Of a DNA stretch of 64,000 bases, positions 24,401-59,887 are shown piece by piece. The first letter of the stretch is position 1, and the number at the start of each line of letters is the position of its first letter. The notes beneath the pieces are model-generated. The model saw only the letters and a list, made by a program, of their open reading frames with translations. It searched no databases and was not told the DNA's origin. This DNA is from Antedon mediterranea (Eukaryota; Echinodermata; Crinoidea; Comatulida; Antedonidae): positions 18,218,932 through 18,282,931 of the forward strand of contig NC_092679.1 in NCBI RefSeq assembly GCF_964355755.1, written 5' to 3'. The position numbers and the translations under genes are program-made.

Positions 24401-27400
24401 AAAGAGATTTGGTTTTGTACACAAAACACATCTTGCAATCATCTCGTTGTATATTATGACACTAAATGTACTGAATTTTTAGTACATAGAAACCCTCCTG
24501 TGGGAAACTCCTTAAGGGACACTTTGTCATGAAAGAAACAAGGATAAATGCATGGCTACACTATGGTCAACTCCTATTCAGGGAACACCTCTGAACAAAC
24601 CAAGCCCCTAGCTTCTACTGTATTCATTTCCAAAAAGCAACTATCAACTCACTTGGCCTCTGACTTCTTCAAACTGTAGATTCTCAAAACAAAGTCACCT
24701 TCTTCGTTTGAATTAAATGTTGAAGGTATGATGACATATTCTCCCTTTGGTAGCGTGAAACGTCCACAGATTTCTCTGGTGTTTATGAATGTATTGGAAC
24801 GGGCCTTGGAGGCGTTGTACAAAAAGAACTCCTTTGGCATGATTTCCATGTTTTTGTTCTTCTTGCTTTTTAACTGAAAATTAAAGTTATTGTGAATGTA
24901 ATAAAAATTAAAGTTATTGTGAATGTAATAAAAAAAAAAGAACATCTGAAAGAAATCATACCTATTTTGTGCCCAGCTTACCTGGATAAACCGACAATAG
25001 CCTTTTGCCTCCAAGAGTGAGATATGACTAGTTGAAATTGAAAACCCCTCTCCACAAATGAAAGTATGGTAGTATCTTGAAATGGATGGGACACCAGCGG
25101 AGTTTGGAGGGAAATTTTGTTAAGATGTGTTTTTTTGTTGTTGTTGAGAGGAATGAGATTTGAATTTTGCCATTTCATAAACCTCTGTACAGCAGATTTG
25201 AAACCTTGCATTCGTGTGCAACAATCGGGATACTAAATGGATTGTAATTGTTAGATTAATACCTCATAGATGGCAAAGCCAATTGTCAGGTTGTCAATAC
25301 CCATCCTCTTCTGTTTGCGGCGATGTTTTTGCATGAGACTAACAATAAATGTAGATCCTCCTTCAATCTTGACAGCGTTGTCCTCTTCATCATCGTTATC
25401 CTCATCGTCACTACCATCCTCTTCTTCCAATTTTAGTCGGATTTGTGGGTTGATCCAGAAAGTGTCTTTATTTAAAATTATAATAAATATGTCATTATTG
25501 TATGTTATTTTTCCAAGTAGTAGGTATTACCTACCAAATTAGAGAGATCAAACCTCAGCCTGTTAATCTACTTTCAAGGATACAGTCTATTATGTTTAAA
25601 AGACTGATGGAAGCACAAACGTCTTTCATCAACATATTCCTACAGTATACTGTGCAGAACCTTGTTGAAGTACAGGCGCACATAGATGATGGAATACACT
25701 TAATCCACTACAAGGTAAATTCATGCAATACAATATTGTAAGATGATTTACTAATTTTACAAATTCTTATATTTAGGTCAAACCTGGGAAGTTCCTGCAA
25801 CCGCCTGCAGAACAGTTCTTCTGCCAGCGGCCGTGAGTAGAATTCACATTGTAATTTTTCTTGCTCAACACTTCCCCTGGTGGAAGGTTACAAATGTCCA
25901 ATCGCATGAATTCACGGGTGAAATCACGGAATTCCATCCTGGAGAAAAATTAGGTAAATACTGCATTTCATCTCCTTTATTCATCTTGATACAAGTATTA
26001 ATAAATCAGTGAAAATGTGTTATATTATTGCATTCGTTACTAAGGTTATTAGAGATTAGTTCTTACCAGAATTCTCCATCATCTGAAGTTTCCAGACCAA
26101 GTTGTTTCTTTTCTTGAGCAGAGACAGCTTCCCATTCACGTGATCTGTTTATGATAAAAACAAATTGTCAGAAAATTGGGAACAAATCTAATGTGTTTAA
26201 AATGTGACATACAAGTGGTTAGACTTACTCATCACTCCATGCACCGTTCCATTCTGATTTTCCCCACGGATTACGCACCCTCACAAGACGGACATCTTTC
26301 TGGCGTGAACGAAGATTAACCTGTAAAATAAAAATCAATTAGTAACAAGTACAAGAAAAGTGTATAGCAGAATACTCACTTGAGGGCAGGGTTTATGGAA
26401 TATACCATTATCTGATATGGGATGTTTATCAAATTTTATATATTCGAGTAGCTCTTTTCTTGGAGATAATAGGCTTTATTCAGGTAAATTAGGTACAAAA
26501 TAGACTACCATCATATAAAACTTCATAAAAGATCATACCTTGGTGACACCTGTAATTGTGTAGGCATGTCCACAGATAAGACCATTGTTTTGTTTAGCCT
26601 CCACCTGTCCGGGCACAGCTTCAATGGAACAACCCATCTGAGAGCTTCTCTTGAATGCTGAAATCATGGTCTTAAAGAGTTTCTTAGGAGTCTTTTCACG
26701 AAGGTCGATAGCTTCAGCAACTCCTCCAGTGAAATCAGCCATTGCCTCAACAACGTTGCCTCCTTTTAATGCTTCGTAGGAGCCGTGGAGTCTACAAGAA
26801 ATAAGTAATTCACAAACTATTATGTTACGCTCATAAAATGCACGGTCATTACAGAGCTTCTTTTATTAGTTAAATATTATATTATTATTAATTTTTGTTT
26901 AATTTTGTTTAAACCTTGACCTTCAGAAAACCATTACTGTGTATATTACTTTCCAGTTAAAAAATACTTTAATTTTAAACATACTTAGCATAAGCCTTCT
27001 CCATAAGAGCACTCCAGAACTCAGTCTTCTCCTTGGAATGGACAAACACCAGTTCACCATTGTAAGTTGGAAGGCGATCGTCCACAACCACATCAACCCA
27101 TTCACCATACTGCCAAAACTGAAAGTGGAAGATTCCGGCATAATCTCTCTTGAATGTTTGTTCTGCTGGACAGACTCGGTGAAGGAGGTTCTGTTGGAGT
27201 GAAAGAGATGCAACGGCTGCCAAGAACCAACAGTCACCTAAAAATAATGAATAAATAAACAATAGTTAATAGTCAAAATATCTTTCTTTGTTCTTGGTGC
27301 AATATTAATATTAATCTCTGTGCAGTACATCCTTGTATAGTAATAAGTTTAAATAAGTCATTCCAATTACCTAAATACCTAACATTTTATCTGTGTCAAT

Positions 27401-30400: not shown

Positions 30401-33400
30401 TTTGCTTTAAATAGGCCAAGAGCATTAGATTTACTGTAGATAACCTGGTATTGTAACAAGCTGAAGTGTATTTGCATTAGTTGCTTTAAAATGCATTGTT
30501 ACAGTATGCAGCATGAGAAGAGAACTTTTCTCTGAAAACAGGACATTGGCAAGACCAATAGTACTGTATCTTGTTTATCTACTGCTGTATTATCGACAAC
30601 CTTACTACTTTATAAGGATATTATACTTGTACTTATTGTTTTATATGGAACAATCATTGTACACCTACAAAACCACAGACACCACAGCAAAGTGTAGGTG
30701 CAAGTTAACAAGCCATTTGTTACCACAAAAGTACTGTATCAACAAATTAAAAAATTTAGAGCCTGTTTCTATCAAAGATTTTCTAACCTGTTGTGGGTTA
30801 TTGTTACAAAAAATATCATTTTATCATGTAATTTTTACAAAGGATGTCGCTATCCACAGACAGTTACTCAAATGTTTGTGCGACCTTCTGAAACCGGTTT
30901 AAAAATCAACCCTTAAACATTAAAATAAAGACACAAAAAATATATTATATTTGATTATTTGTTTTTTTGTGGAAATTCTTAAGGTTACGAATATAGAGTT
31001 TGCTAAAATGAATAGGAGAACAAAAGGTGAGCTCTAATGTGTACTTACCAAGCATACCCTGCTCAATGTCAAAACGGCTCGCTCCTCCTACAAAAAATTC
31101 AGGGTTATCCACAATTTCCTGAAAAAAACAAATCAAGACAAAAATCAACTATTTTTTGTTTCTAAATAAGTATTTTTAAACTAATGATTTTATGCTAATT
31201 AAGTAGACTAACAAAGTATATAGTACAATGTCTATTAAGGGGACCCCCCCCCCCCAATCTGGAGGACCCAACTAGGTACTATGTTCTCTTATCCCCCATG
31301 TTAAAACCTATTGCCTATTGTTCATTCACATTCCCCTTAAAGGTATCTAGTATCAAACAACGGCCTCTACTCTACTGTAATATATAAAATATTTCTGTCA
31401 ACAAAATTTAAAACAAACAATTTTTTTATAAATGTGTAATAATAGTTATTTGCATTATTTATTGCAAATATTATGTTGAATTCTATAATTACTACATATT
31501 TACAAGGTTTTTTCTGTGATGCAAGGATGGAATATTAAAAATAATGCAAACAAGAAAATTACAGTATCAATGGTTCTTACAATTTGCAATTCCTACTTAG
31601 TGTAAAAAAAGAAGCTGTTCACAAAGTTATCATTACGGTACATTGTTAATTTAGCACATATGACTTCATCGGATTTGCCTAGGTGCTACGTTAAAATAAT
31701 ACTGTTTTTATACTAGAACTAAAATATGATTACATATATCAATATGGCCTCTATGTCACACTATGGTGGCCTCTACTTGTCAATGTCCTGTCAGCAATCT
31801 AATCCTAGTGATGTTCAAAGTGTGATGTACCGATGAATTAATTTATAATATGCTGGTCACAATTAGCGCTACAGAGCAGGAAGTCCTTGAAACGCACTGA
31901 TAAACATATAATTCTGCATATACTGTAGCTACATTAAATTTTATATACAAATATCAATTATATATTTCAAATATTTTATTTAGTTGCTTATGTAAAATGA
32001 AGTTTTCACATTTTATAAACATTTAAAACCCATTAAACTGGACAGGTTTAGGCCTAGTGGATCATAAACATCTCGGTGGGAGCTTTTATCTATAGCAATA
32101 TATATCTAGAGTAAACTATACATTTAACTATATTTTATTGCATGTGCAGATTTTACATATTAAACTAATGTAGACATTATATAGGTTGGTGCCGCTTTGT
32201 ATACAGCAATATTACTATATCAATCATATTACTGTATCAATCATATTACTGTATCAATCATATTAATGTATCAATCATATTACTGTACTGTATCAATCAT
32301 ATTACTGTACTGTATCAATCATATTACTGTATCAATCATATTACTGTATCAATCATATTACTGTATCAATCATATTACTGTATCAATCATATTACTGTAT
32401 CAATCATATTACTGTATCAATCATATTACTGTATCAATCATATTACTGTATCAATCATATTACTGTATCAATCATATTACTGTATCAATCATATTACTGT
32501 ATCAATCATATTACTCGTCAATGTTAGTTTTGTCTAAATGTCCATTCCCTGAGCTATACTGTAGCCGCCAGTGATCATTTACATAATTTATAATAATATT
32601 TATTAATTATCTCAAGAATACAAATCATTAATCATTAATTAATAAAATTTTAAGCAATTTACTATATCCATAAGCAAATATATAAATGTATTTTCATCTC
32701 GGTTCAAATGGATAATGAAGTTTTTTATGGTTTTTGTTTACAGTACAGGAAAGTAATCCTTGACGAAAAGGACACCAACCCTGCACAATTATTTGCATAT
32801 TTCTTAGGTGTACACATACTGTATGATGTGTACATTTTAAAGAACAGACATCTTTTGTAATGAGTAGAGGGTTAAACCCTTGAGTATTTTTCTTCAAATT
32901 TGGCCCCTTTTACAGCAGTCAATATGGGCCTGCTGTCCCTGTCCAGATTTAATCCTAGTATAGTTTTGTTTAAGCTGCAAAAGGAATTATCACACCAAGA
33001 AGTTATACAATTTTTGTCGTTAATATATTTGTGATGAATACATAAACATTGGAGCATGTAATTGTCATAGATTTTATGCGCAGTAACCATCCAAACTTTC
33101 TTTTATTTCAGATTATATCAACACACTTTAATTTTAAGTTCCAACCCTAAGAAGCCTCAATTATACCTTCAAAATGTACAGGTTGTACCGCTTGTATATT
33201 GGCCACCCACCCGCTGTAGCCCATCCCAAAGTATTCCCAACTCTTGAAAACTAATCCACACCCTTGCATTTCATAAATTCCTTATACTTTACTATATATG
33301 TATTATCTAGTTTATACTGTTGTACATTGCACTGTAATCCATATTATCTGATGGAAAAATATGGCGCAAACACCCAAAACAGTGGTTGACATAATTTATA

Positions 33401-39640: not shown

Positions 39641-42600
39641 ATGGAGTCGGACTCGTATATGAAAGAGAATCCACTGAGAGTGAAGAACACAAAGGGTTGG
39701 GTGATAACGGCGTGTACATTTCTTATAATTTTACCAGTAACTGGTGTCTTGAGCTGCTATGGTGTTATTCTGGTCGAGTTGCAACATGAGTACAAAGATC
39801 TTTCAGATACAAAAGCAGGTTTGTGGAACATTTAATTAATATTCGTGTAGAAGAAATATATATATATAATATGTTCGCATGCGAATAACGTTTTTAAATT
39901 TTATTTCAATACGGATGATTTTAGCAGATGTCCAGGAATTAGCTATATTATCAGTCTTTTTAGTTTTAGGCCTATAATAGTTTAATACGACTAATGTGCA
40001 TATTATGGTAGGCCCTACATGTGATTACACAGGTCATTTGACTGACCACCAGTGGATGGTCATAAATATTCATTCCTCCAGACTATTCCAGTGTCCACCA
40101 TGCTGCTACACCTGTAGGCCTAGGATGTCGAAATTCAGAACTGCATTGTGCAATCGTGTTCCTGTATGTTCACTACGATAAACCCACTGTCAACAAAATG
40201 ATTCTGTTGATATAGAATGCAATATATATTACCAGACTATTTGGCACCTCAAACATGTAATTAAACCAATACTAAATGTATACGATGTTAATATTGTTGG
40301 TACCCGTTTTGGGGCATTAATAGCCGCTTTTAGTATAAAGGTCATGCTTTCATTCAGGTAATATGGCAATGGGCAATGTTGTCGAACGTGTCATACATTA
40401 TATATAGGCCTATAGTACAGTAATACCCCCAATATTAACTGTATTATCGCCCCAATTATCGCAGTAGACATAGAATTTAAAAAGACTCGTGTACTTTACA
40501 ATGTGATTTTTTCATGAAATAATACTGTGTATGAGAGATGTTATTTAGTTATAATATATTATTAATATTATATTATTATATATTAATAATATATTAATAA
40601 TCAATGCTCCATAACAGTATTCTATGTGTTCTTCGTGGTAATGGACTTCTTTTGTACTGGTTCTTCATTCCTTATACAGTTGTACAGTACGTATTAAATT
40701 AAATACGTAGGAAAACAATTCGATACGAAGTGAATTAGTTAGCACAATATTCTCTAGTTTATTTGTTGTTTTTTCTGATCAACGAGCCTTTGTTCAATTT
40801 ATGTATGGTTCAATTCAATATATGCTGTATTACATTTCTAATAAACTCTTCTATTCCTTTTCTTAAATTAGTAATTTGGCACTCTAGCTTAGCATGCTTA
40901 CCAGTCCCAAGGTCTTAGGTTCAAAGCCTCTATTTATTCTATCCTATTCATAGCAACAGGATAATCTGTGGCTAAAGCACTGTCTACACTATCAAACTAG
41001 TTTGACAAAAAGATGTCAAAATTTGGTGTTGATGTGACATGATCACATTTTTTGTCACATAAAGTTCAATAGTGTAGACAAAGCTTTAAAACGTTAGTTT
41101 TTTTGTTAATCAATTAAATGTCCCCATACTGTAATTGGCAAGGTATAACTTGCAGATAAAAGATCTATTGTGTTGTGGTTACATAGTGCTGCGAATTCTT
41201 AATTAAATAATTAGTTAGACCTAATAATATGAATACGAAACAATTTGGTTTGTTAAAATTTGGAAAATAAAGATATCTGGTAAAAATGGAAGTAAACTCC
41301 ATTGGTTATGAATATTAAACAAAAATATATTCACTAGGCCTATATATTTCTGTATTTTAGACGATTAAATTCAATGTTGGCTATACTAGATGAAACAGAG
41401 GGAAGGATAGATCGGAGTAAAAAAAAACAAAGATACTGGCAACAAAAATGAATAATTTTTATTTCCATTAAAAATAATAATTAGGCCTAATTTACAAGCA
41501 TTCATACAGAATAATTAGAAGGAAGCCAATTTATACATTATTTCCACTTTATAATATTTTAATGTAATATTAATAACATTTGAGAAAAATAACATGTGAT
41601 GCAGAAAGTAACACTAAACAGTGTGTGTGAAACAACGTGACGAGTATGTTTTTATCACACGATACCTGTCAGGTGAAAGTGTCACCTTTCGTTTTAAAAG
41701 TTACCTAAGACCGTGTTCGTACGGCGATTGAAATACACGTTTATTTGGTTTTTACCCTTGGGGTAAAACCCATACGACGTTCGTACGAATAATCAAAGTA
41801 CCGGTAAGCTGACACGAAACCAATTAAGATCAGAATTCTTAGGTCAAAAAGCGCCCTCTGTGCGTCGACCCATATCAATTGACATGGCGTGTTGACATAT
41901 TCAACTGGATATTGCATGTCGTTTTGTGCGCAAATCGTTCAATTATTATTTTTCAATCGACAACCAGACCTATATATTTATAATACATCGAATACAATTT
42001 ATTTTTTAACTAAATAATGATCGAAAATCCTGCTAACGTATGTTGTTTGTTGACCACGTGTATTTATCGTGCGAGCCGAACTATTGTTGTGGAAATTCCA
42101 TTTAATGTACACGCATTGTACCCCTCTTGTAAAAATCACCACGTGTATTTATCGTGGGAGCCGAACTATTGTTGTAAAAATTCCATTTAATGTACACGCA
42201 CTGTACCCCTCTTGTAAAAATCACCACGTGTATTTATCGTGCAAGCCAAACTATTGTTGTGGAAATTCCATTTATTGTACACGCACTGTACCCCTCTTGT
42301 AAAAATCACCACGTGTATTTATCGTGGGAGCCGAACTATTGTTGTAAAAATTCCATTTAATGTACACGCACTGTACCCCTCTTGTAAAAATCACCACGTG
42401 TATTAATCGTGCGAGCCGAACGGTTGTTGTGGTAAAGTCACAGACACCAGGCTACCACAATACAGAACTCCTTGCCGTTACATGTACATTATAAGCCACC
42501 GATTCGCAAGTTCAGGTCACCGGAGAAAACCAACGAGTTGATTATTTACATATAATTTTACAAAACAATAGATATACATTTGCATTAACGAAAAAGAACA

Positions 42601-51600: not shown

Positions 51601-54041
51601 TGAAATGTATAATATAGGCCTAGTTCACCAAATGAATATAGTGTTGTTTTCTTGCAGATGAAATTCATGACTACCAGTGGTATCTCAAAGGCTAATGCTG
51701 CAATGGTGCTCCTAGTCGTTGGCGTAGGAGACTTTATTGGTCGATTTCTCAGTACTGTATTTGGAGATCACATTTGTTTCCCGACAATCTACATCTATCC
51801 TATTTTTTCAGTCATCATGGCGGGTACAACGTATAGTCTAGTTTTTGCAAATACATACGCTCACCTCATAGTGTATGCAATAGGCAAGTATTTCTATATT
51901 TATTTAATAGGCTTTGAGGCTGTTTCTACCGCCACCATACCGCGGTAAAAACTGGTATTTTAAAAATACGGTACTGTTTTTTGTGTTAGCGGTTTCTCAA
52001 AGATACCGTGTTAAAATACCATATTTTATACTCTGAATCATTTTTGGGTCTCTCTTTGGTAAATTATCGGCAACGTTTCTCAATTTATAGGAAATTATCT
52101 CATCTAACGTATCTTCTCTAACTTCCTTTAAGGCATTGAGCAGTCGTTTTTAGTAAGGCGACATTAATTGTATTGGTATTTGGAATACCATGGTCTTTTA
52201 TACTGACTTACAAGATCAACAGCCTTCTGTAACTTTAATAGTTTTAAAATAATCGTTCGTATACGGTCTTTGTCAATAGATATATCGCATATTTTCATTT
52301 TTTTAAATAGCCTATTTGTATATATCGTTTAAGCTGTTCGTTTAAAATCTGACGGAAATAATAAATTATTATTCACTTACACAATGTCAATCTATTACAA
52401 CTCTTTAATTTGCACTTTTGAAGATGATAAATAATCAATAAAGTTCTGTTAATTACAAAGTCCAGTTTTTTATCTGACAATGTTATCATTATTAAAACGC
52501 ACATGTTATCACAATGAATACGCTCATTTATCCTGCGATTGGAATCCTTATCGCTAATTGCTTAACCCTCCTCGAATACACCCCATATCATTGATTGACG
52601 AATGGGGCTGACAGATAAAATAAAACCGTTAATATCATATTTGATTGGATTTTCAATGGTCTGTTTGTTACCTTTTGTAAAACTAGGTCCATCATCAAAA
52701 TATTCATGTTTATTTTTTTTATGACTAACCACTTATAAGTTTATACTTCAAACAAATGTTTATCGGGTCATGAGGTGGTCACAGACAAGAGGTTATACAA
52801 CATTATTGATGTTTCAAGTTAATGTTTACCTTGGTCAAATAACAATGAAACAGGGTACATTTGATTTTAGCAAGTCATTGCGTAATTTCTACGCGTGTTA
52901 GTATATGGCGTTTTGATTTTTGTCTGTGTTTCGATGTGTGCCAAAATGTTTATCTATTTACAAATATTAAGTCAAAACGTTGTCTAGAACCTAGACTAAT
53001 CATCACTTAATTTATTTTTTTTTTTTACAAATTTATTACAGTTATCGGAACATGTACGGGAATTGTAAATAGTATGCTGTTTAAAGCCACGATGGACTTG
53101 TTCGGCAGTAAAATTTTAGCAGAGTCTTGGACGATATCCTTACTGGCTGCTGGTATTGGTGTTATGGTTGGCCCAACTGTAGCAGGTAAGATATACATTC
53201 GATACGCGTATGTAAAAGCTAAAGCGGAAGCTTGGTTCCCACTAGAACATAACGCAAGGACGTAAACGCAACGCAAGCGTTTTAACCAATGACAAGCGAA
53301 GAAGCCATCGCTTGTGATTGGTCAATTCACTTGCGTTGCGTTACGTCCTTGCGTTGCGTCGCTAGTGGGAATCAGGCTTTAGTTCCCACTATGACGCAAA
53401 CGCAATGACTTAAGTTTAACGTAAGCGATTTGATCAATGACAAAAAGTGAGAGTTCTGATAACCCATCGCTTGTGATTGGTCAAATTTCTTGCGGCGCGC
53501 CTACATCCTTGTTGGTTTGCTTGGTTCCCACTAGAGACGCAACGCAGGGACGTACGCCCAACGCAAGCGAGTTGACCAATGACAAGCCACTGTTCGAATA
53601 ATCCATCGTTTATCATTGGTCAAATCACTTAAGTCGTATCAACGCAAAGTCCTGTATTACGTAATCACAAGTGGGAACCAACGACGCAATAGTGCTGCAA
53701 ACATCGCAGGTTTGATGTCACGCAGGCGGGAGGCAAACCCAATTATTATTGTTGCTATATCTACTATCGATTATTCACGTTGTTATAATTATTATTATCT
53801 TATCTTCTATATAGGTCTCTCCTACGATATTACTGGCTCGTTCAATATCGCTTTCTTCATCAGCACCGGTTTTTTCTTGACGGGCTTAGTACTAACTTTA
53901 GCGATTCCGTATTGCCAAAGGAAGGCCGACTGGCGACCTGAACCGATGAAGAAAAACGAACACGTCATTCAGGAAACGGTCGGTATTTTTGCAACGCCAA
54001 AAGACGAAGAGCTCGTAGATCATTACGTAACTGCAGTATGA
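39641..54041 (+). CDS. SLC16 / monocarboxylate transporter-like protein
   Basis: Six coding exons: 39641-39818, 46216-46512, 49471-49832, 51658-51883, 53042-53185, 53815-54041 (TGA), joining in phase to 477 residues. A major-facilitator carrier of the MCT kind, expected to move monocarboxylates or related small organic acids across the plasma membrane; the substrate is not predictable. Landmarks: KGWVITACTFLI in TM1 (a degenerate form of the MCT TM1 motif, which normally has an acidic residue before GGWGW), AGWIGSLAFGIMF after the first loop, YGWRWTWRIFGAF in TM6, a charged central loop (KKPETEI to KPNHQQ), and GDFIGR in TM8 with Asp304/Arg308, the D-x3-R pair essential in MCTs. The C-terminal tail is hydrophilic. 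Intron 4 starts with GC (ATAG|GCAAGT) rather than GT. Introns are loaded with transposon relics. The start is the first ATG after several upstream stops. Confidence 0.93.
40975..41087. mobile_element. MITE family A, copy 3 (short)
   Basis: The left end AAGCACTGTCTACACTATCA and right end AGTGTAGACAAAGCTT are inverted. The interior retains TTTGACAAAAAGATG and TTTTTTGTCACATAAAG but lacks the middle blocks of copy 1. It is in SLC16 intron 1, oriented with the gene or against it indistinguishably because the ends are symmetrical. Confidence 0.75.
42055..42425. repeat. 85-bp tandem array with a CACGTG in every unit
   Basis: CACGTG recurs at 42055, 42140, 42225, 42310 and 42395, exactly 85 bp apart. 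Units share GTGTATTTATCGTG, GAGCCGAACTATTGTTGT and ACTGTACCCCTCTTGTAAAA. Units 1 and 3 read TTGTGGAAATTCC while 2 and 4 read TTGTAAAAATTCC, so the array grew by duplication of a 170-bp pair. The open frame through it (42069-42302) is a by-product. CACGTG is the core site of bHLH-zip factors (MYC/MAX, USF) and of CLOCK/BMAL. Confidence 0.9.
43070..43200. repeat. GGGGACAC-type interspersed repeat
   Basis: ACAGTTAATCCAACTTTAAC start, then GGTGTCCCTCAAATAGGGTG, GTGTCCCCTGATGC and GTCCCCTGAAAAGCGGTGTC, all short tandem-like GGTGTCCC blocks. Reverse orientation relative to the 38459 copy. Confidence 0.45.
43540..43671. mobile_element. MITE family B, copy 1 (diverged)
   Basis: GGTTCCCACGCAAGAAGCGC at the left, TTTAACCAATCAC and TGTGATTGGTCAAATTAC inside, and CTTGCGTTGCGCTTACGTCA at the right: the same order of blocks as the better-preserved copies at 47227 and 53228. 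Confidence 0.65.
46732..46869. mobile_element. MITE family B, copy 2
   Basis: GGTTCTTCCCACTAGAAGAC at the left, TTTGACCAATCAC and CTGATTGGTCAAATTAC inside, and TGCGTTGCGTTCTAGTAGGA at the right. It lies in SLC16 intron 2. Confidence 0.7.
47130..47211. mobile_element. Small inverted-repeat element D, copy 1
   Basis: GACTATCGCAAG (about 47143) and CTTGCGATAGTC (about 47197) are perfect inverted copies around AAGTCATATAGAAGCCAGG. A related copy is at 48505-48595. It abuts a family B MITE at 47227. Confidence 0.6.
47227..47404. mobile_element. MITE family B, copy 3
   Basis: The terminal repeats AAAGCTTGGTTCCCACTAGA and the complement of CGCTAGTGGGAACCACGCTTT define a full-length copy of about 178 bp. 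The interior has AACGCAAGGACGTAAACGCA, TTTTAACCAATGACAAGCG and CTTGTGATTGGTCAATTCAC. It lies in SLC16 intron 2. Confidence 0.8.
48455..48655. repeat. Element D copy 2 flanked by a direct repeat
   Basis: Element D copy 2 (about 48505-48595) contains GACTATCGGAAGTCATATAG and CTTGCGATAGTAACG. It is bracketed by two copies of CGGTGAATAGGCCAATGTTA (near 48471 and 48618) with similar flanks (ATGAAATAA). The direct copies are too long for a normal target-site duplication and suggest a local duplication that included the element's flank. Confidence 0.6.
49082..49218. mobile_element. MITE family A, copy 4
   Basis: The left end GCTCTGTCTACACTATCAAA and the right end GTTTGATAGTGTAGTCAGAGC are inverted repeats. 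The interior has ATGATGATGTCATATCACTA and repeated ATCACTACCATATTT blocks as in copy 1. It lies in SLC16 intron 2. Confidence 0.78.
49833..51657. other. SLC16 intron 3 content
   Basis: A 1.8-kb intron with the reverse SINE (49945-50092), a poly-A tract near 50960-50978 and TAGGCCTA octamers. No exon found; the frame at 50618-50896 has no family resemblance. Confidence 0.45.
49945..50092 (-). mobile_element. tRNA-derived SINE, family 1, copy 2 (reverse)
   Basis: On the minus strand the head carries GGGTTCAAGTCCTGTCATAT, then CAGGATTTTTTCTCATGCC, then TATAGAGCATCTTGTGTATG and TTTGTCTTGTGAACGC, matching the copy at 37355. It is truncated at the 3' side with no A-run. It lies in SLC16 intron 3. 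Confidence 0.75.
51884..53041 (+). other. SLC16 intron 4, GC-AG type
   Basis: Exon 4 ends GCAATAG and the intron begins GCAAGTATTT; the acceptor is TTTATTACAG at 53032-53041. Only this GC donor keeps the frame (phase 1) and joins the transmembrane sequence to VIGTCTGIVNSM. No GT donor near the exon end gives a continuous frame. Confidence 0.75.
53228..53684. mobile_element. Cluster of three MITE family B copies
   Basis: Three copies lie end to end in SLC16 intron 5: 53228-53380 (full, AAGCTTGGTTCCCACTAGAA to GCTAGTGGGAATCAGGCTTT), 53382-53517 (diverged, GTTCCCACTATGACGCAAAC onward) and 53519-53684 (GCTTGGTTCCCACTAGAGAC to CACAAGTGGGAACCAACG). Each carries the internal CCAATGACAAG and ATTGGTCAA blocks. 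Self-targeted insertion or tandem amplification could explain this. Confidence 0.78.
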
Positions 54042-57862: not shown

Positions 57863-59887
57863 ATGGCGTTAAGTTGTGATGTAAAGTTGTCGCTATTCTC
57901 TGTTATATTTTATCTATGTTGCGGTGAGTTATTGTGTTTTATTTTATTGCTTGTATTTTACATTTAAAAATACTTCTTCTATATTGCTTAAGTCTGTTAG
58001 TAACACTAACACCCATAATGTAATTGATGTTGCACCCTAAATGATGGATTGAGAACTGATAGAGTAACAAGAACTGTTACTGTTACTATACTTGGGCTAC
58101 TTTTTAGAAGAAATAGGCCCGTTTATGTTAATTGTTTCTACCCACCAAATAGCGATACCTGTGCCCATAAAACCGACTTACCAGAATTAATAAATAAGCC
58201 TAAACGTGACTTTGTTTTACAGCTCACTGTGTGTGTGATTAAAACCGACTTACAGGCCCCCCCCCCCCCTTTACAGCGAACCCCCCCTTAACCGACTGCG
58301 AACCCCCATCCCCGACATGCCCAATACCTCACCCTCATCTCCGAAAATCGTCCAAATACGTGCCCCACAGTACAAAAAGGTATGGGGTGGGGGTGACCCA
58401 AATACTTAGTGTGCGAACCCCCCCCCCCCCCCCCAAACCCCCCCCCCCCCCCCTTGACAGATCCTGGCTACGGCCCTGACTTACCAGGGTGAATAACTAA
58501 GCCTAACGTGACTTTGTTTTACAGCTCCCTGTATGTGTGATTAAAACCGACTTACCAGGGTGAATAACTAAGCCTAACGTGACTTTGTTTTACAGCTCCC
58601 TGTATGTGTGATTAAAACCGACTTACCAGGGTGAATAACTAAGCCTAACGTGACTTTGTTTTACAGCTCCCTGTATGTGTGATTATTGTGATCAATACTA
58701 TGATTCGTATGCTGCAGCGAATTGGGGATTCAGTTGCCCTCGATTGCTCAGCGATGGACCAGATGACGTACATTGCTGTGGATCAGCGTCAACCGGGAAA
58801 TACTGCTGCAATAAGCAAGAAAAGGAGGATTGGTTAAATACAAATGATGATCATGGGTACGTTAGGTCATAGATTATGGTAGTGGTGTTGACCATGGTAC
58901 GTTAGGTCATAGTCGATGATGGTGACGTTGGTCATGTACCAATAATTACCATGGTTAGGTCATGAATGATGGTGTTGTCGATGATGCTGGTGTTGTCGAT
59001 AATAGTGACATTGACAGAGGATTGGTCAACCACACCAATGATGACTATAGGTACGTTTTAGGTCATGGATGATGGTGGTAGTGTCGATGGTGGTTGGCGT
59101 TGATAGGAGGATTGGTCAAGTATCAATGACTACGATGAATACGTGAACTCATAATGATGATGATAATGATGATGAATGTTGTCTGAAATGAACAATTTTG
59201 AGAGGTTGAACTAAGGCTTACCTTGGTCGTTTTTTATACTTACCCCATGATGTAAAGGAATCGTGCAATAGCCAAACAATTTAATGATTCTTTCAGTATC
59301 AATAGCTTGGTAGCAGTGGTAATTGCTTTTATAGTAATAGTTACGATTTTCCTGTTCTTCACTGCTGTTGCGTGGTTTGTCATGCATGCTTCCAGTAAAC
59401 AGACATCTTCAAGAAGACATGCTATAGGTACGTAAGATAAACGGACATTTGTTATTTTTCTTTTAAATATTAAACACTTTATTAACTGATCGGCGACGTC
59501 AAAAACACACACGATTATCGTCTAATTGTGTCTGTGCTAAAATACCCACGAAATATTTACATTAGTAAACATCATTTTTGTACAATTTTATGTATTTTCT
59601 TGTATTTTTATTGTCTTAATTAGAAAAAATGAATTTCCATTTTAAGTGGACCAATACAATTTCTTGAATCTTGAATCTTTAAATTTTTTTTTTCCTGTGT
59701 AGAAGCTAGAGTTAATCCGACGACAAGCACGCAGATTATATCTCCACCACCATACCACATAGCAGCAGCACCAATACCATCCTACACAGAATTATATCAT
59801 GACTCTGGGAATGGTAGATGTTTGAACACTGTGTCAGGACAGTTGCTGGAACCATTTACCACACAACCAGTATTGAATGAAAAGTAA
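57863..59887 (+). CDS. Shisa-like single-pass membrane protein
   Basis: Four coding exons: 57863-57923, 58667-58856, 59297-59427, 59703-59887 (TAA); in phase, 188 residues. Residues 1-20 (MALSCDVKLSLFSVIFYLCC) are a signal peptide. The extracellular part is a Shisa-type Cys domain: CMCDYCDQYYDSY, WGFSCP, then HCCGSASTGKYCC, eight cysteines including the two CC pairs. A transmembrane helix follows (SLVAVVIAFIVIVTIFLFFT), then a cytosolic Ser/Arg stretch and a Pro-rich tail with a PPPY motif (a WW-domain ligand) and PSYTEL, as in the proline-rich Shisa subgroup. Shisa proteins act as trafficking adaptors at the ER or plasma membrane; which partner applies here is unknown. The acceptor at 58665-58666 was chosen because three near-identical upstream acceptors lead to an early stop. 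Confidence 0.88.
58198..58666. repeat. 71-bp tandem repeats carrying decoy copies of the Shisa-like exon 2 acceptor
   Basis: GCCTAACGTGACTTTGTTTT recurs at 58501, 58572 and 58643, exactly 71 bp apart, with an older variant near 58199. Each unit includes TTTTACAG|CTCCCTGTATGTGTGATTA, the same acceptor and first bases as real exon 2. In the decoys the next codon is TAA (GATTAAAACC) where the real exon has GATTATTGTG. Between the old copy and the recent array lies a C-rich insertion (58258-58460). Confidence 0.9.
58258..58480. repeat. Poly-C-rich insertion, likely a transposon relic
   Basis: Several long C runs alternate with CGAACCCCCATCCCCGAC-like sequence, ending TTGACAGATCCTGGCTACGG. The final block resembles the complement of the GTGGCGGATCCAGGATTC terminus at 21651, as if both are ends of one widespread element. 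Confidence 0.5.

Follow-up and report, generated by a model that had tools for sequence, protein, structure and literature searches.

The window, a stretch of 64,000 nucleotides of the Antedon mediterranea genome, lies on a contig (C10) of an assembly that comprises 18 contigs and 354 Mb, and contains a four-exon Shisa gene at 57863-59887 on the + strand, with a predicted product of 188 residues (Table 1). All junctions of the gene are GT-AG and all are in phase. The domain Shisa_N (Pfam PF13908) was identified in the assembled protein at 28.2 bits against a cut-off of 22, and the same gene scored 31 bits when the genome was searched with Shisa_N. The layout of the protein is that of the Shisa family (PF13908), with a signal-like start, an N-terminal Cys domain (Shisa_N), one hydrophobic, presumably membrane-spanning segment and a PPPY tail (the signal peptide and the transmembrane segment were recognized by eye), and the gene differs from the family solely in the duplicated edges described below. 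The genome search produced one additional match, a paralogue on contig C6, which shares with the gene in the window a phase-1 intron at the same position before the Cys exon (phase judged by eye) and has a single acceptor at this position. The paralogue is too distant for dating the duplication event.

Table 1. Positions in the window of the Shisa exons, the repeat units at both edges of exon 2 and the transposon insertion.
Feature	Position	Strand	Remarks
Shisa exon 1, coding part	57863..57923	+	ATG, signal-peptide-like; phase-1 donor gtgagt
Array unit 1, 72 bp, diverged	58170..58241	+	Inserted base in branch-point-like motif; acceptor before 58223
Target-site duplicate ACTTA, left	58248..58252	.	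Right copy 58479-58483
Internally deleted TIR transposon copy, 226 bp	58253..58478	.	CAGGCC...GGCCCTG; just after unit 1/2 junction
Array unit 2	58479..58543	+	First bases 58242-58252, left of insert; acceptor before 58525
Array unit 3	58544..58614	+	Acceptor before 58596
Array unit 4, joined to real exon	58615..58685	+	Acceptor before 58667
Shisa exon 2 (Cys domain)	58667..58856	+	190 nt; donor GG|gtacgtta
Donor-edge repeat source	58823..58891	+	Last 34 nt of exon 2 + intron 2 start
40-bp sub-repeat	58896..58935	+	Second donor-like ATG|gtacgtta
Degenerate donor-edge copy	59017..59087	+	79%; donor-like ATAG|gtacgt at 59050
Second donor-edge copy, more degenerate	59105..59175	+	72%; donor GT lost
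Shisa exon 3 (transmembrane segment)	59297..59427	+	
Shisa exon 4	59703..59887	+	SPPPYH motif, stop TAA

Intron 1 ends in an array whose unit of 71 bp consists of 52 intron bases followed by the first 19 bases of exon 2, repeated head to tail. In the near units (units 2-4) the intron part reads AAACCGACTTACC...TTTTACAG and the exon part CTCCCTGTATGTGTGATTA. Tandem Repeats Finder reported the segment 58478-58685 with a period of 71, 2.9 copies and 100% matches, in agreement with the initial annotation, which had described 71-bp tandem repeats duplicating a splice acceptor and exon start before Shisa exon 2. The array thus presents four acceptors of the form TTTTACAG|CTC, with exon starts at 58223, 58525, 58596 and 58667; the annotation had correctly ended the last acceptor at 58666, and had placed the ends of the first three one base too high. 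Its count of four acceptors is borne out at the level of sequence by the core CGTGACTTTGTTTTACAGCTC, which is intact in all copies. The acceptor signals of units 2-4 are identical across 66 bases (47 of intron and 19 of exon), and each of these units has a branch-point-like CTAAC, a pyrimidine tract and the AG. Unit 1 differs from the others by six substitutions and one inserted base, and its local alignment with the last unit nevertheless scored 96, a value that none of 300 shuffles reached (mean 15.8, maximum 23). Its branch-point-like motif is CTAAAC and not CTAAC, which suggests that the acceptor of unit 1 may be weaker.

The breakpoints can be read directly. The exon sequence GATTA|TTGTG and the intron sequence to the left of unit 1, CCATA|AAACC, are joined at the repeat junction as GATTA|AAACC, and both breakpoints share TA, as expected of a simple tandem duplication with 2-bp microhomology. 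This is a tandem duplication that spans the intron-exon boundary, as its unit holds an intron end and an exon start. A genome search with the 71-bp array found no second locus, and a dispersed satellite or mobile unit was rejected as the source because the unit was found at the Shisa locus alone.

Units 1 and 2 are separated by a transposon. The core of the insert is shared with at least 40 scored places among 678 genome candidates, and relatives about 1.05-1.44 kb in length have matching terminal inverted repeats. Target duplicates of 5 bp were present in all five of the other family copies that were read at both ends. The family is a high-copy one, with C-runs of variable length near the left end. 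When the insert and one ACTTA are left out, the spacings between the acceptors are 71, 71 and 71, and the far copy is therefore unit 1 of a single four-unit array. Accordingly, the older copy that had been noted near 58199 is a genuine copy, but the idea of a separate old copy is ruled out by the exact spacing; it was split off by the transposon. By the same spacing, the insertion postdates the array. Unit 1, at the edge, is the diverged one, and we infer a later homogenisation or expansion of the other three, although the identity of units 2-4 could stem from selection rather than from recency.

The choice of acceptor would determine the product. Exon 2 would be 190 nt long from the acceptor before 58667, and 261, 332 or 634 nt from those before 58596, 58525 and 58223, respectively. 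Only the last of the four acceptors gives an uninterrupted protein of 188 residues; from each of the other three, the reading frame stops at codon 27, the truncated proteins ending in ...APCMCD* for the near copies and ...AHCVCD* for the far copy. As had been proposed, the upstream copies run for six codons into TAA and would, if chosen, truncate the protein. The stop lies there because the duplication ended there, GATTA being joined to AAACC, and no selection is needed to explain it. It is located in exon 2 with two exon junctions downstream. Transcripts with an early stop and junctions downstream are subject to nonsense-mediated decay, and the use of alternative 3′ splice sites can be coupled to such decay; the array is similar in that the choice of an upstream acceptor would be predicted to give an early stop. 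With 66 bases in common, the near acceptors cannot be told apart by local signals. Exon size and the exon body that continues beyond unit 4 probably favour the last acceptor, while an earlier one could gain from being transcribed first. Inspection excluded the acceptors as recursive-splice (zero-length exon) sites, as the bases after them are CTCCCT or CTCACT rather than GT.

Exon 2 has extra copies of its donor edge as well; they lie within intron 2 and are a new observation, absent from the initial annotation. The better preserved copy (59017-59087) scored 63 against a shuffle maximum of 28, and the more degenerate one (59105-59175) scored 40 against 26. There is in addition a 40-bp sub-repeat with GGTACGTTAGGTCAT at 58856 and 58896, although the case for finer sub-repeats in this intron is weakened because the region is partly ATG-rich simple sequence. 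The donor-like copies that are left, at 58896 and 59050, would, if used, give an 88-residue product by read-through to a stop that immediately follows the Cys domain and precedes the transmembrane segment. Both edges of exon 2 have thus, as read from the repeats, been duplicated outward, and no comparable copies were found at the remaining four edges of the Shisa gene. That two edges of one exon should be affected is mildly unusual. The 12-mer CTATAGGTACGT occurs both at 59045-59056, in the donor-like copy in intron 2, and at 59422-59433, at the exon 3 donor, which may be due to chance.

To place the array against its genomic background, arrays with a period of at least 50 were counted in 160 kb sampled from 20 random places in the genome. 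They formed 17 blocks of 10,487 bases in total, or 6.6% of the sample. With arrays this plentiful, some splice sites are expected to lie within arrays unless selection removes them. No edge-spanning repeats were seen in a small sample of 10 sugar-transporter exon loci and the exon of the paralogue. Two candidates at other exons were rejected on inspection: a near-repeat in L045 (1762-1812/2020-2068), considered as a donor-edge copy, is intronic, as the donor lies upstream of the repeat, and the repeats from 53230, near a transporter-like exon ending near 53186, are intronic as well.

We consider it likely that the array is a boundary-spanning tandem duplication that is tolerated, with the exon-proximal sites being used and stray products degraded. 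The sequence shows that a tandem duplication crossed the boundary of intron 1 and exon 2 and rejoined exon ...GTGATTA to intron AAACCG..., that the unit grew to four copies and that a transposon afterwards split units 1 and 2. The near units are, by their sequence signals, potential acceptors. Exon 1 would most likely be spliced to the last of them, which makes exon 2 an ordinary 190 nt in size, the upstream copies then being just additional intron and any products of upstream acceptors, with their codon-27 stop, being removed by nonsense-mediated decay. The donor edge of exon 2 would have been duplicated likewise into intron 2, presumably earlier given its divergence. The annotation had offered two options, a tolerated recent expansion or a splice-level switch, and the former is the better supported because the near units do not differ from one another, splicing to the last acceptor leaves the gene intact and arrays are common in this genome. 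That the near units were miscounted in the assembly is very improbable: although units 2-4 are identical and could be counted only by reads at least as long as the array, the array is ~210 bp and the assembly chromosome-scale, and the differences peculiar to unit 1, together with the transposon in the repeat junction, independently support at least two tandem copies.

The splice-level option, in which splicing to upstream acceptors in particular cells or stages lowers the amount of Shisa through the codon-27 stop and copy number could tune the dose, is in our judgement unlikely. It would fit the intact CGTGACTTTGTTTTACAGCTC core of all four copies and the same early stop with every upstream acceptor, but that stop is a direct result of the duplication endpoint and does not require selection, and the extra base in the branch-point-like motif of unit 1 (CTAAAC for CTAAC) also argues against it. 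Less likely still is heritable dose control, in which the acceptor array and the donor copies, with a copy number varying between individuals, would set the share of unproductive transcripts. We likewise give very little credence to new mini-exons, although in units 2 and 3 the exon fragment is followed by CTTACCAGG|GTGAATAA, 35 nt from the start of the fragment, such that a donor-like CAGG|GTGAAT in the near units might delimit a 35-nt poison mini-exon and be a step toward a new intron like the one described in potato (see below). This donor-like site is weak, without a G at +5, and lies just 36 nt from the following acceptor, whereas animal introns are usually longer than that; moreover, each such product would still stop at codon 27.

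Under the favoured reading of a tolerated duplication, the Shisa acceptor array is real but a rather ordinary kind of tandem duplication, and as a type of mutation it has already been described. In the potato RdRp gene PGSC0003DMG402000361, a new intron arose when the end of an intron was tandemly duplicated along with the start of the adjoining exon (PMC4974935). The two cases are alike in that the duplication took in the 3′ end of an intron, with its branch site, pyrimidine tract and AG, as well as the 5′ part of the following exon; however, RNA-seq showed that the potato duplication yielded additional exon sequence along with the new intron (PMC4974935), whereas the Shisa array has four copies, of which the upstream ones reach a stop. 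More generally, new splice sites have been documented to arise by tandem genomic duplication (PMC3443670; PMC2891723). In the AGGT model, in which tandem duplication leads to intron gain (see PMC3443670 for a review and PMC2891723 for cases in Drosophila), splice sites are likewise added by the duplication and un- or mis-spliced products acquire early stops, but that model duplicates exon sequence with AGGT, whereas the Shisa array multiplies an acceptor that existed before. We found nothing relevant in the literature on competing duplicated 3′ splice sites. The locus is a clean experiment of nature on acceptor choice by the spliceosome: three acceptors share the same 66 bases, and picking a wrong one would truncate the Shisa protein. 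It also suggests that introns can lengthen at their own ends, exon-edge copies being silent as long as the site beside the exon body stays in use, and here such lengthening is seen on both sides of one exon.

The window also contains other tandem repeats. At 24877-24934, in a gene on the - strand, a 27-bp tandem duplication (TATTACATTCACAATAACTTTAATTTT) lies directly against the acceptor (CAG) of an exon that encodes calpain domain III; it doubles the pyrimidine-rich stretch and not the AG. An array of 85 bp × 4.4 at 42053-42430 is dispersed, with about 40 similar places in the genome among the matches listed, in contrast to the single-locus 71-bp unit of the Shisa gene, and is probably part of a mobile element. 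The array of 17 bp × 17.5 at 32209-32515 (ATATTACTGTATCAATC), which is open as a repetitive reading frame, is probably a plain minisatellite.
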